Shown: piece after piece, positions 11,312-17,392 of the stretch
How positions within the stretch are numbered: the stretch's first letter is position 1
How the letters are laid out: each line of letters begins with the position of its first letter
DNA from: a virus
Direction: 5' to 3' (one strand)
Virus record (IMG/VR): IMGVR_UViG_3300009314_000079
Location: 1-25,197 of that record
Length of the DNA stretch: 25,197 nucleotides
Translations under genes and position numbers: made by a program
Notes under the pieces: generated by a model
Databases searched by the model: none
Told to the model about the DNA's origin: nothing
The model's input: only the letters and a program-made list of their open reading frames with translations

Positions 11312-11643
11312 TATGACTTACTAAAGCTAGTCATCTCGTCTACATTAACAAATGGCAACCCGGCTTTATACATCTTGTGCCAATCTATCTTCTCTCGGAT
11401 CTGGAGCATTTTACTCCTGTCAAACCATCCTTTCTCATCAGCGATTAAAGCATTGACTATTCTCTTCACTTCCCAAGTAGTGCTTTTATCTTTGTTAGGA
11501 AACTTTGACCACCAAGTTATACTATCCTCAAGCATCTTCTGATGTTCGAGGCTTACTTTACTTTTCTCAAAAATACAGCGCATAGCGAGGTAGTGCATTT
11601 CCTCGATACCTAAGATTATCTTCCCGTTAATTTTGATTTGCAT
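11311..11643 (-). CDS. hypothetical protein in the terminase cluster
   Basis: The 110-residue product begins MQIKINGKIILGIEEMHYLA and has a charged, tryptophan-containing middle (SITWWSKFPNKDKSTTWEVK). It overlaps the terminase small subunit gene by 17 bp. No domain or membrane segment was recognised. Sitting between the two terminase genes it may assist packaging, but this is inference from position only. Confidence 0.55.
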   Translation of the reverse strand: MQIKINGKIILGIEEMHYLAMRCIFEKSKVSLEHQKMLEDSITWWSKFPNKDKSTTWEVKRIVNALIADEKGWFDRSKMLQIREKIDWHKMYKAGLPFVNVDEMTSFSKS

Positions 11644-12112
11644 AGTTTTCCATCCTGTTCTTCTCGGCTAGTTTTGGCTTTGCTATTATCTCTTTGAAAA
11701 AGTGATTGTGTTCTACCTTGTGCTCAACTTTCTCTTTTAATTTCCCGGTTAGCTTTAAGATTGTTTCAAAAAACTTATGCCGGGCGGTCCAATCTTCCAC
11801 TTCAATAAAATCATTTGAGTTTTTGTTTAGGATTAACTTATCTCCTTCAACTGACTCTGCCTTTGCCTTTGCTACATAGAGATTGCAAGATTGTAATTTA
11901 TTTGCCTCTAAGCCTTTTAAACCATAAGCAACAATGGCCTTATCTGTAAGGCCAGCTCTTTCAAATTCATCCTCCAGACTAACTTTTACTAACCTTTCAA
12001 TTCGGCAAGCTTGTTTGGCATAGTTCTCTGAATAGCCAGCTGCTCTTGCAGCATTTATCGGAGTCATACCCATTAGCCTATTCTTTTTGTATTTTTGCTG
12101 GCGTGTATTCAT
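11627..12112 (-). CDS. terminase small subunit
   Basis: The 161-residue protein has an N-terminal helix-turn-helix typical of small terminases: YKKNRLMGMTPINAARAAGY followed by SENYAKQACRIERL (about residues 8-42), with the AAxxAGYS pattern. A helical oligomerisation region follows. WTARHKFFETILKLTGKLKE near residues 108-127 resembles the ARHK.FE..lKL.G.LK segment common in this family. It would recognise packaging sites and regulate the large subunit. A 12-bp palindrome lies just upstream. The 5' neighbour is the HTH regulator at the early/late junction. Confidence 0.8.
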   Translation of the reverse strand: MNTRQQKYKKNRLMGMTPINAARAAGYSENYAKQACRIERLVKVSLEDEFERAGLTDKAIVAYGLKGLEANKLQSCNLYVAKAKAESVEGDKLILNKNSNDFIEVEDWTARHKFFETILKLTGKLKEKVEHKVEHNHFFKEIIAKPKLAEKNRMENYANQN

Positions 12113-12131
12113 AGGATATCCTTTTCAGGGC

Positions 12132-12160
12132 AGGTGTTCGCTGCGCAGCGGTTGCCACCT
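12132..12160. repeat. palindrome ahead of the terminase small subunit gene
   Basis: CGCTGCGCAGCG (12139-12150) is a perfect 12-bp palindrome. Outer arms AGGTG (12132-12136) and CACCT (12156-12160) can extend the pairing across small unpaired stretches. There is no T tract, so it is not a standard terminator. The place next to the small terminase suggests a protein-binding or packaging site, or an mRNA hairpin in the leader. Confidence 0.5.
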
Positions 12161-12205: not shown

Positions 12206-12430
12206 CTAATATTTAGGCTTTTTTAAGGCAGGATATTTTTCATAACCGTATGCTATATAAGAAGCTACAGTATTTTTGTCGATTTTCAAAAGTGTATGAA
12301 TTTGTCGGTAAGAGAAATCAGCGAGATAAAGGAGAAAACAAGCTCTTTTCTTGAGACTTTTAACCTTCCCAAGAGGCTTGTTCTTGAGCGGAATTATAAT
12401 TTCCCGATATTGATAGTCTCGACTTGACAA
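12206..12430 (-). CDS. small HTH regulator (sigma region 4-like) with RBS in a hairpin
   Basis: The 74-residue product contains a helix-turn-helix of the sigma-70 region 4 type: SLKKRACFLLYLADFSYRQI then HTLLKIDKNTVASYIAYGYE, covering about residues 25-63. It has only the DNA-binding part. The start is TTG at 12428-12430, preceded by AGAGGTGG. That ribosome site lies in the 3' arm of a 17-bp hairpin, so translation is likely controlled. The gene stands first in the late direction, just before the terminase genes, which fits a late switch or packaging regulator. An ATG start is absent in this frame, so the exact N-terminus is uncertain. Confidence 0.65.
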   Translation of the reverse strand: MSSRDYQYREIIIPLKNKPLGKVKSLKKRACFLLYLADFSYRQIHTLLKIDKNTVASYIAYGYEKYPALKKPKY

Positions 12431-12452
12431 ATACCACCTCTTGTATTAAGAT
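12424..12452 (+). promoter_or_regulatory. consensus-like promoter on the plus strand
   Basis: A perfect TTGACA (12424-12429) is followed after 17 bp by TAAGAT (12447-12452), which matches TATAAT at four of six positions. It faces away from the late genes. Transcription would start near 12458-12460 and meet the terminator at 12486-12512 after about 55 nt. The -35 box overlaps the start codon of the HTH gene on the other strand, so the HTH protein could be an autoregulator here. Prediction only. Confidence 0.5.
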
Positions 12453-12480
12453 TAAATTGGGTGATACAAGAAGTAGTATT
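12430..12480 (-). promoter_or_regulatory. 17-bp hairpin sequestering the HTH gene ribosome site
   Basis: In the minus-strand RNA, AATACTACTTCTTGTAT (12480-12464) pairs with ATACAAGAGGTGGTATT (12446-12430) around a 17-nt loop. All 17 positions pair, with two G-U wobbles. The right arm holds the AGAGGTGG ribosome site and the first base of the TTG start. The two positions are C-A mismatches in plus-strand RNA, so the pairing favours the minus transcript. Long read-through RNA would hide the site. Confidence 0.65.
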
Positions 12481-12512
12481 TTTAGACCCTGCTTTGGCGA
12501 GCAGGGTTTTTT
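12459..12512 (+). ncRNA. candidate short antisense RNA
   Basis: The predicted plus-strand promoter (12424-12452) and the terminator (12486-12512) define a transcript of about 55 nt with no credible coding content. It would be fully complementary to the 5' arm of the hairpin that hides the HTH ribosome site (12464-12480), so pairing could free the site and raise translation. The opposite effect through RNase III is also possible. No expression evidence is available. Confidence 0.4.
12486..12512 (+). terminator. strong intrinsic terminator
   Basis: ACCCTGCT (12486-12493) pairs with AGCAGGGT (12500-12507) around the loop TTGGCG and is followed by TTTTT (12508-12512). This is a textbook intrinsic terminator for the plus strand. 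On the minus strand the stem is followed by TCTAAAAA, so it should act poorly on early-to-late transcription. Confidence 0.75.
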
Positions 12513-12513
12513 G

Positions 12514-12745: not shown

Positions 12746-12782
12746 CACTTCACCTCCACCTCATTCTTTTCTTAATTATTAT

Positions 12783-12797
12783 ACAGTTACAGTTACC
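12783..12797. repeat. one arm of a 15-bp inverted repeat
   Basis: ACAGTTACAGTTACC here has an exact inverted copy, GGTAACTGTAACTGT, at 13090-13104 inside the 85-residue gene. The distance is about 290 bp. An exact 15-base match this close is unlikely by chance, but no function is evident; it may be a trace of local rearrangement. Confidence 0.5.
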
Positions 12798-12968
12798 ATT
12801 TTTCCGTCTTACAACACGACTAACGGCATTACTAACTGGACGATTTACAGCGATACTTTAACCCTCCGATACCTTTTGGCTTATAGCCTAATCGGTTGGT
12901 CGTTTTGGGTTGTTTTCTCGACTAACAACGCCACTTACAGAATGACTAACAGCGTGAATTACTGCGGA
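12798..12968 (-). repeat. two diverged 57-bp direct repeats encoding VS-rich peptides
   Basis: Copy 1 is 12912-12968 and copy 2 is 12798-12854; by eye about two thirds of bases match with no gap. In the same frame they encode AVIHAVSHSVSGVVSREN and AVNRPVSNAVSRVVRRKN, sharing the pattern AV...VS..VS.VV.R.N. Peptide similarity across both copies suggests former coding selection. Copy 1 lies in a 33-codon frame with a start. Copy 2 has no ATG, GTG or TTG start. Confidence 0.5.
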
Positions 12969-12989
12969 ATATGACTTATTTTTTCGCAT
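12888..12989 (-). CDS. 33-residue peptide with strong ribosome site
   Basis: AAGGAGGT lies five bases before an ATG at 12989, inside the end of the preceding gene. The product starts MRKNKSYSAVIHAVSHSVSG and ends in a basic tail (RENNPKRPTD). The valine/serine heptad-like pattern could form one amphipathic helix. The same pattern occurs again downstream without a start codon. No family is recognised. The ribosome site argues that it is translated. Confidence 0.45.
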   Translation of the reverse strand: MRKNKSYSAVIHAVSHSVSGVVSRENNPKRPTD

Positions 12990-15456: not shown

Positions 15457-15915
15457 TTACGACACTATATCTATATCTTTTATTTGCAGCCTTACATTCA
15501 TTTTTTCTTTTATAAGGAGATTTATCAGCTGCATTCTTCTACCAACTATTTCATCCCTTGATTTTTCCTGAGCATACACATCAGCCTTCCTGGCTCTCTC
15601 AAGGAATCCTATAGCCCTCTTTATATCCCCTTTTGCTATCCAACAAGAGGATAGGTCAAACAAGACTTTAAAGTTGCCCGGCCTTAGGTTCAGCGCCTCG
15701 GTGTAAGAAGCTATTGCGGCATTGAACTGGCCTCTCGCAAATTGAAGGTTGCCCATATTAAGCCAGCTATAATAAAATTCTGGTTCATCCCCTAGCGGGT
15801 AGAAGAAGTGCCAGAATACATTGCCATACTGCCTCCGGGCAAGTATTAGCTGCCGAGCATACCACCCGGCTAATATCCCAAATATCCATAATCCAACCCC
15901 ACTCAAACCAAACAT
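15457..15915 (-). CDS. TPR protein, likely C-terminal half of a split TMTC-like glycosyltransferase
   Basis: The 152-residue product opens with one membrane helix (about 3-22, SGVGLWIFGILAGWYARQLI). Residues 47-80 form a tetratricopeptide repeat (LNMGNLQFARGQFNAAIASY, then TEALNLRPGN) and 81-114 a second. In TMTC-like enzymes the last membrane helix is followed by just this layout, membrane helix, short link, then TPRs. The GT-C-like gene upstream ends just before that helix, with an HNH gene in between. The ATG at 15915 lies in the last codons of the HNH gene, with AAAGGA eleven bases upstream. It probably works as a partner of the GT-C half. Confidence 0.7.
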   Translation of the reverse strand: MFGLSGVGLWIFGILAGWYARQLILARRQYGNVFWHFFYPLGDEPEFYYSWLNMGNLQFARGQFNAAIASYTEALNLRPGNFKVLFDLSSCWIAKGDIKRAIGFLERARKADVYAQEKSRDEIVGRRMQLINLLIKEKMNVRLQIKDIDIVS

Positions 15916-16409
15916 TTTATTGTTCCTTTATTTTTAAGTTTCCTTCCGTCAAAAATTATATACTTTAGATTGACCTCCTTGCCGCTTTCAAACTTTTTGT
16001 GCGTAGATAGATTAGAAAAAGCCATAAGCATATGGGGTCTGTTGTCGTTTTTCTTGCCAAGATGATGAATTTGCTCACAAGATTTAAGATACCGGCCTAT
16101 TTGCTTTTCAACAACAAGACGGTGTTCGTAAACATAGTTATTCTTATCGCGGGATGGATGGTGAGGCGAATAAATTAGAATATATCCTTTTGGATTTATT
16201 GTTTTTCCGCCTTTCCACCAATGACTTTTAGCGCCTTTATGTGCTTCGCTTAATTTTCTTTTAGTCTCTTCAGAGCGAGGTTTTCCTTTTTTGCTTTCAC
16301 TTATCTTTATTCTATGACTTTCACTGTGCTTCTTACCAAGCCTATTGGCCGATATTCTTCCTAAGTGTTCAATCTGTTTTTTACTCCGTTTATATACTCC
16401 TTTTGGCAT
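15903..16409 (-). CDS. HNH homing endonuclease (NUMOD3 type) inserted in the glycosyltransferase
   Basis: From the ATG at 16409 the protein has 168 residues. NUMOD3-like repeats (KKHSESHRIKISESKKGKPR and SEETKRKLSEAHKG) precede an HNH_3-like core: GYILIYSPHHP, YEHRLVVEKQIGRYL, QIHH, KKNDNRP. GGAGGT is placed four bases before this ATG; a TTG four codons upstream is less likely. The 5' end overlaps nothing but supplies the stop of the upstream gene, and the 3' end overlaps the TPR gene start by 13 bp, as expected for an invading gene that keeps both flanks translatable. It is a paralogue of the gene at 461-943. Confidence 0.85.
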   Translation of the reverse strand: MPKGVYKRSKKQIEHLGRISANRLGKKHSESHRIKISESKKGKPRSEETKRKLSEAHKGAKSHWWKGGKTINPKGYILIYSPHHPSRDKNNYVYEHRLVVEKQIGRYLKSCEQIHHLGKKNDNRPHMLMAFSNLSTHKKFESGKEVNLKYIIFDGRKLKNKGTIKCLV

Positions 16410-16411
16410 AA

Positions 16412-17392
16412 TTACCTCCAAATTTTATCAATTTCAGAAATTAGACCTGATAAGAAAAGACATAGACCTACGTTAGCTAGATAAGTTTGCCGGTTAGAGA
16501 TATACTGCTGTCCTACGTTTACGAAGTTACACCACATCCCTATATTAACTGTGGCCCAAAAAAAACCCAAAGTCATAATGTGTCCTCTGTGGTTGATTAA
16601 CAGATATACCATCAAGATTGCTCCGGCTAACCCTACAAAGAAATATCTATCTGGTTTAGGGCTATTTTTAATCCCTTTTTTAGTATCTACAAAGTCATCC
16701 ATATAGCTTTGATAGAAAGAATAATGGAGGCCGAAGATAAAATTGACCAAATAATATCCGTAGAATTTCAAGGCTATAATAAATTTGAAGGGGTGTATTT
16801 TTAGTATTTCTTTATTCCTCGCATAACCAGTCAATTTTGGATTACCCTTCGAGTAAAACATTCTCTTAACACGCGAGAACACTAACCACAAAGTGAATAT
16901 GGCTAACACGCTATACTGTGGATGTAATAGGAAGGCTAAAGGTGAGAAGATCCCGTTAAAATATATCAATCCCGGAGGAGCAAAGAAGAATACTGCCGGG
17001 GCTAATAGAGGGAAGCACCACGCTAGAAGTATAATAATTGTAGTTGTGCCATAACATTTACCACTCACCCATACTGATACCTCAGTATTTATAGGATTTA
17101 AAGCAAATAGTATGGCTGCTACATAAGTGATATGAGTCCGGCCAAAGGCAAAGTAGATAAGGCAGCATACAGTAAAGTGTATTGCTATAGTCATAAAGTG
17201 AGCTATAGCACGGCAGCTTTTATCAGCCCAATAGGCCTGGCCTCGGAATACAAGCCATAGATAGATGAGCTTATTCTTAGGCTTAGGGTATTTATTCTTT
17301 TCAGTATTAGCCAATACCGCCAAGTCATCAACAACATAGTGGTAGCTTAGGGCCGGGAGAAGGAATAGCATACATAGTAGTAATATCATCAT
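16412..17392 (-). CDS. GT-C-like polytopic membrane protein, N-terminal half of a split TMTC-like glycosyltransferase
   Basis: AAGGAGG directs starts at 17392 or 17389; an upstream in-frame ATG would overlap RusA by 73 bp and is unlikely. The product (about 325 residues) has many hydrophobic helices. After the first helix comes HYVVDD, an acidic pair at residues 22-23 in the place of the catalytic Asp of GT-C glycosyltransferases. Next is AHFMTIAIHFTVCCLIYFAF, then LFALNPINTEVSVWVSGKCY, close to the HP-x-x-TE-x-V-x-W-x-x-GR block of TMTC/PMT-like proteins. Near the end, SNRQTYLANVGLCLFLSGL fits the E-R-x-x-Y-L-P-x-x-G block. The protein stops there, before the last helices and TPRs, which lie in the gene at 15457-15915. 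It would move sugars from lipid carriers to surface targets. Confidence 0.65.
   Translation of the reverse strand: MMILLLCMLFLLPALSYHYVVDDLAVLANTEKNKYPKPKNKLIYLWLVFRGQAYWADKSCRAIAHFMTIAIHFTVCCLIYFAFGRTHITYVAAILFALNPINTEVSVWVSGKCYGTTTIIILLAWCFPLLAPAVFFFAPPGLIYFNGIFSPLAFLLHPQYSVLAIFTLWLVFSRVKRMFYSKGNPKLTGYARNKEILKIHPFKFIIALKFYGYYLVNFIFGLHYSFYQSYMDDFVDTKKGIKNSPKPDRYFFVGLAGAILMVYLLINHRGHIMTLGFFWATVNIGMWCNFVNVGQQYISNRQTYLANVGLCLFLSGLISEIDKIWR

Follow-up and report, generated by a model that had tools for sequence, protein, structure and literature searches.

A ribosome site predicted to be locked in a hairpin and overlapped by a putative antisense RNA ahead of the terminase genes of a podovirus-like phage

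We report that the ribosome site of a small HTH gene, lying just before the terminase genes of an uncultured podovirus-like phage, is enclosed by a predicted 18-bp hairpin in RNA of its own strand, and that a promoter and a terminator on the opposite strand frame a predicted antisense RNA overlapping this hairpin. The DNA analysed (the window) is the whole stretch of 25,197 bases of the phage record (40% G+C), the minus strand of which encodes a head-tail connector (PHROG 332, Pfam Head-tail_con), a major head protein, a tail protein and the large terminase. Tentatively, we favour reading the arrangement as a locked ribosome site of the T4 gene e type, overlapped by a predicted antisense RNA that would probably open the lock. 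From the sequences, their predicted folds and energies and their rarity against shuffled DNA, we infer the existence of both transcripts, their pairing in the cell and a role for the HTH protein.

According to this model, the HTH gene would be transcribed by read-through from the early region, and the hairpin in the read-through RNA would lock its ribosome site, so that very little of its product would be made. From the opposite strand, a host-type promoter, its -35 box overlapping the HTH start codon, would give an RNA of about 55 nt. Beginning in the hairpin loop, this RNA would span the 5' arm, leave the ribosome site uncovered and stop at its own terminator. The GGGUG at its 5' end could act as a toehold by pairing with the loop and could then displace the 5' arm; alternatively, RNase III could remove the arm, and either route would expose the ribosome site. 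How much HTH protein is translated, and possibly late genes too, would then depend on how read-through transcription is balanced against antisense RNA. The features concerned are listed in Table 1.

Table 1. Features at the junction before the terminase genes (positions in the window).
Feature	Position	Strand	Remarks
Small terminase subunit gene	11627..12112	-	Next downstream of the HTH gene; PHROG 51, E 0.0018; relatives
74-aa HTH protein gene	12206..12430	-	Starts with TTG at 12430; next upstream of the small terminase gene
Sigma70-type promoter TTGACA-17-TAAGAT	12424..12452	+	TTGACA 12424-12429, TAAGAT 12447-12452
18-bp hairpin enclosing the ribosome site, in minus-strand RNA	12481..12429	-	Loop 12447-12463; from folding
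Dyad ATACCACCTCTTGTAT (ATAC-N8-GTAT), candidate operator 1	12431..12446	.	Fills the -35/-10 spacer
Shine-Dalgarno-like AGAGGTGG	12435..12442	-	All paired in the stem; unpaired probability 0.001
Predicted antisense RNA of about 55 nt	12459..12513	+	Start inferred from the -10 box
Dyad ATACAAGAAGTAGTAT (ATAC-N8-GTAT), candidate operator 2	12464..12479	.	Just past the promoter start
Intrinsic terminator of the antisense RNA	12484..12509	+	11-pair stem, T tail

The arms of the stem, AAATACTACTTCTTGTAT and ATACAAGAGGTGGTATTT, form 18 continuous pairs, two of them G-U, around a 17-nt loop; the initial annotation had placed the ribosome site and HTH start in just such a continuous hairpin, one pair shorter (17 bp). 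The minus-strand RNA folds at -20.2 kcal/mol (z -6.2), as against -14.2 kcal/mol (z -2.8) for the plus-strand RNA of the same DNA, in which the two wobble positions do become mismatches (C-A), as had been claimed. Selection on the mRNA had been argued from these two positions. Both agree with it, but the argument is thin, since both are transitions and since a third position, at the loop edge, favours the other strand, with U-G in the plus RNA and A-C in the minus RNA. The stem is the longest of its kind in the window. Dinucleotide shuffling of the whole 25 kb, with both strands scanned, yielded an 18-bp stem containing no more than two G-U pairs in 1 of 250 shuffles. When any number of G-U pairs was allowed, a stem that long arose in 6 of 200 dinucleotide shuffles, so that stem length alone is less striking than the combination of length, good pairing and position. 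The predicted cost of opening the HTH start (16.9 kcal/mol) is the highest among 28 minus-strand gene starts examined, the median of which is near 7, and stands at about the 99th percentile of random positions. These predictions support, in silico, a ribosome site that would be locked in read-through RNA. A crude scan also listed the hairpin as a minus-strand transcription terminator, a candidate that we rejected, its tail (TATTTGTC) being poor and its stem covering the ribosome site. A search with the hairpin pattern returned the hairpin itself and two matches without a pair, those two in apparent coding sequence.

On the opposite strand, the promoter ranked first across both strands of the 25 kb with a hand-written sigma70 matrix, and the terminator was the top plus-strand one in the scan. 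The predicted RNA opens with GGGUG, complementary to CACCC in the loop, continues through the complement of the entire 5' arm and ends in its own terminator, leaving the ribosome site uncovered. A promoter of such a score with such a terminator 20-100 nt downstream occurred in none of 300 shuffles (2 of 300 with relaxed thresholds), figures that are guides and not strict probabilities, because the thresholds were chosen after the data had been seen; they support in silico the view that the unit is an unlikely product of chance. Full complementarity is automatic for an antisense RNA; what is not automatic is a start in the loop and an end just beyond the 5' arm. Masking nucleotides 12459-12513 as bound by the antisense RNA lowers the predicted opening cost from 16.9 to 8.0 kcal/mol, a normal value for this genome, the predicted energy of the antisense/mRNA duplex being -105 kcal/mol. 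The TTGACA promoter with 17-bp spacing and the strong terminator, framing a transcript of about 55 nt over the 5' arm, had been pointed out in the initial annotation and hold good at the level of sequence, where they give the putative cis-encoded antisense RNA its own promoter and terminator opposite its target. The release of the ribosome site by pairing, also proposed there, is reproduced in silico by the fall in opening cost.

The same elements might serve to keep the HTH gene off, the plus promoter firing against the read-through polymerase, or the pairing of the two RNAs leading to cleavage and decay. Repression is the usual outcome of convergent promoters and of cis-antisense RNAs, and here the top-ranked promoter of the window faces the HTH leader; pairing within an mRNA leader can repress instead of activating, which counts against the opening model. 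However, the antisense RNA is predicted to pair at positions upstream of the ribosome site, which would thereby be released from the hairpin, and a second lock would be superfluous for a gene already locked; we regard such repression as distinctly improbable. As to when the antisense RNA would act, early firing is to be expected of a host-type promoter and fits poorly with a simple delay, as in the timing switch suggested initially; a timing role is therefore uncertain, unless a repressor or collision with the read-through polymerase silences the promoter.

One might also keep the lock and dispense with its antisense opener. The hairpin would then silence the HTH gene in read-through RNA until a later, phage-specific minus-strand promoter in the loop gave an RNA lacking the 5' arm, and the antisense RNA would be unrelated or incidental. 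As in T4 gene e, the predicted fold holds the Shine-Dalgarno sequence and start in a stable stem of RNA initiated upstream, and RNA begun within the loop (12447-12460) would open at a predicted 5.8-6.5 kcal/mol, as against 16.9 kcal/mol. Relief of a locked site by late promoters is well documented for T4 e and I-TevI (PMC3014915), and the late sigma gene of phage 7-11 has a hairpin ahead of it (PMC8948821). Yet the both-strand promoter ranking gave the minus strand no sigma70-type promoter at the loop by which the hairpin could be bypassed, the nearest (TSS 12386) lying inside the HTH gene; no repeated phage-specific promoter motif is apparent in the window, where T7-type promoters (CACTATA) are not above chance; and the non-random antisense unit would be left unexplained. 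Conservation of the structure in related phages was not found among the TerL/TerS relatives examined. We consider this alternative unlikely.

A serious rival is a pair of DNA operators, since the arms are also dyads, one in the promoter spacer and one past the promoter start. They would then be two copies of a repressor site controlling the plus promoter, the repressor being some phage protein, perhaps the HTH protein itself or the product of an unsequenced gene, and the RNA hairpin would be a by-product of inverted copies. ATAC-N8-GTAT has three matches in the window for 0.28 expected, and two of the three are the hairpin arms; all four half-sites read ATACnA, and the two bases at which the arms differ are both outside them. 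The first dyad occupies the 17-bp spacer, the dyad centres are 33 bp apart (about 3 turns), and in L035, a phage of the same group, a looser look-alike (ATACAAG-N4-AGTAGTAT) stands a few bases before a TTGACA promoter. The Arc site of P22 is a repressor operator inside a promoter spacer; such operators and the window share a dyad between -35 and -10 with a second copy near the start, but the copies in the window have conserved centres, are mutually inverted and were not found at other promoters. Dyads come cheaply, moreover: among random 18-mers, about 2% contain one of 5 bp and 12% one of 4 bp. Conservation also extends to the asymmetric centre (the copies agree at 14 of 16 bases), although a dimer site has no need of it. 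The identical contig described below has the motif, and no other locus examined does; the L035 look-alike aside, it did not turn up at any further promoter in the phage or in its relatives, and elsewhere in viral contigs it gave single matches, mostly in apparent coding sequence. The candidate operators come without a known repressor. We hold the operator pair to be rather doubtful; were it right, the junction would carry an ordinary repressor-controlled promoter. Because the sequences come from identical genomes, they do not separate RNA pairing from DNA binding.

TTG at 12430-12428 (minus strand) is the only ATG, GTG or TTG start of the HTH frame. Against Pfam, its product scored 21.5 bits with Sigma70_r4_2 (cut-off 25.7) and 18.7 bits with HTH_23, both below cut-off; it scored 16.4 bits (cut-off 136, E 0.0056) with NCBIfam PRK06930 (positive control sigma-like factor), and matched PHROG sigma factors weakly. 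A single-sequence AlphaFold model has four helices (pLDDT 72), for which Foldseek returned nothing at E <= 0.001, the top rows being sigma -35-binding domains at E about 0.8. Among viral contigs, the identical one alone has a homologue, and phage records have none. The product may fairly be described as a small HTH protein bearing a motif like sigma region 4; the sigma-like HTH protein of the initial annotation keeps its position before the small terminase gene, while its likeness to sigma factors stays under the Pfam and NCBIfam cut-offs. That it might control the late genes we infer from the position of its gene. Xpf, the late regulator of PBSX, is encoded just before the terminase genes; Xpf (PRK06930) and the protein of the window have in common a small size, a sigma region 4-like character and this gene position, but the latter matches far under the cut-off and has only 74 aa. 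In L024, another small HTH-like gene occupies the same place before the small terminase gene (PHROG sigma factor, E 0.11), with no BLASTP match to that of the window.

The hairpin, the HTH gene and the antisense unit were found together in this virus and in one contig (L003), identical to the window across 8,154 bp, junction included; as only identical copies were found, covariation lends the stem no support. A further contig (L054) has a 100% identical portal protein and stops short of the junction, and no portal-based relative at 84% extends to it. In L004-L006 the large terminase is 79% identical and the small terminase gene is different, and upstream of the terminase these contigs lack the HTH gene and show no comparable short-range hairpin. 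Among the small-terminase relatives L010-L052, inspected individually, the hairpin of the window was not seen. Rfam gave nothing at gathering scores for the window and its relatives. The sole bacterial or archaeal genome match to TerS, in a Nanoarchaeota MAG, was rejected as a host link, the match being a short contig that is probably a misplaced phage contig.

Near-consensus sigma70 promoters occur at this junction in relatives too. Upstream of the terminase, L004 and L006 carry a leftward TTGACA-16/17-TAAGAT, with the hexamers of the plus promoter of the window, directed away from the terminase, and in L006 leftward TTGACA/TAAGAT promoters aim at leftward frames. In L012 (2571-2678), L015 (about 690-803) and L018 (about 3455-3572), a near-consensus sigma70 promoter is followed 58-77 nt on by a strong terminator that abuts the small terminase start, with no evident Shine-Dalgarno sequence between, like an attenuator in a late leader; ATGCTAATTAGCG is common to the terminators of L012 and L015, and GCTAATTA lies in a similar hairpin of L006 (about 2650). 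A longer structured leader with closing arms of the GGCGC/GCGCC type, which gave no Rfam match, immediately precedes the small terminase gene in L011 (3610-3700), L032 (2720-2795) and L024 (3925-3995). Between two late genes of L006 (3863-4153), about 290 bases without a clear gene, including a 12-bp inverted repeat, come just ahead of the large terminase gene and could be intron-like or a structured RNA. Within the window, a G+C-rich imperfect palindrome (GGTGGCAACCGCTGCGCAGCGAACACC, 12125..12156) immediately precedes the small terminase gene, and two small minus-strand frames, 12989..12888, which has a good ribosome site, and about 12860..12750, encode the similar repeats AVSHSVSGVVSR and PVSNAVSRVVRR. 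The left-end gene 455..943 (+) looks like a paralogue of 15903..16421 (-), a 36-nt inverted repeat (86%) joining the starts of the two frames; the minus-strand ORF 302..913 overlying the former is probably spurious.

If the favoured reading is true, an antisense RNA would activate its own target gene, whereas cis-antisense RNAs usually repress, and a single stretch of DNA would provide the start codon, the lock on the ribosome site and the promoter of the opening RNA. Its more specific form is a natural phage switch of the toehold type, in which the antisense RNA pairs with the loop first, strips off the 5' arm and activates a sigma-like regulator, the promoter of the activating RNA sitting inside the repressing arm of the target gene. 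We think this form somewhat unlikely; if it is real, engineered toehold switches would have a natural counterpart, compressed into about 90 bp.

In T4, the ribosome sites of e, soc, 49 and I-TevI are sequestered in early read-through mRNA (PMC3014915). The window resembles these in that the ribosome site and start of a phage gene needed later are predicted to lie in a stem that only upstream-begun RNA forms; it differs in that T4 relies on late promoters inside or beside the 5' arm, whereas the window, which gave none of sigma70 type there, has an opposite-strand promoter giving a predicted RNA complementary to that arm. IsrK, a short RNA of prophage Gifsy-1, frees the ribosome site of its own downstream mRNA and so activates translation (PMC4825925). 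It likewise is a short phage RNA with an intrinsic terminator that frees a ribosome site, with an ultimate effect on a transcription regulator (AntQ), but it is the 5' part of a same-sense transcript, whereas the RNA of the window would be antisense and fully complementary. In phage 7-11, a hairpin proposed to be regulatory stands before the late sigma gene 47 (PMC8948821), so that there too a sigma-like phage gene is preceded by an mRNA hairpin proposed as a regulator; that hairpin, however, is a short one with a CUUCGG-kind tetraloop, is not shown over the ribosome site and has no antisense unit. The arrangement in the window would thus consist of parts of known kinds, joined with a putative antisense activator.
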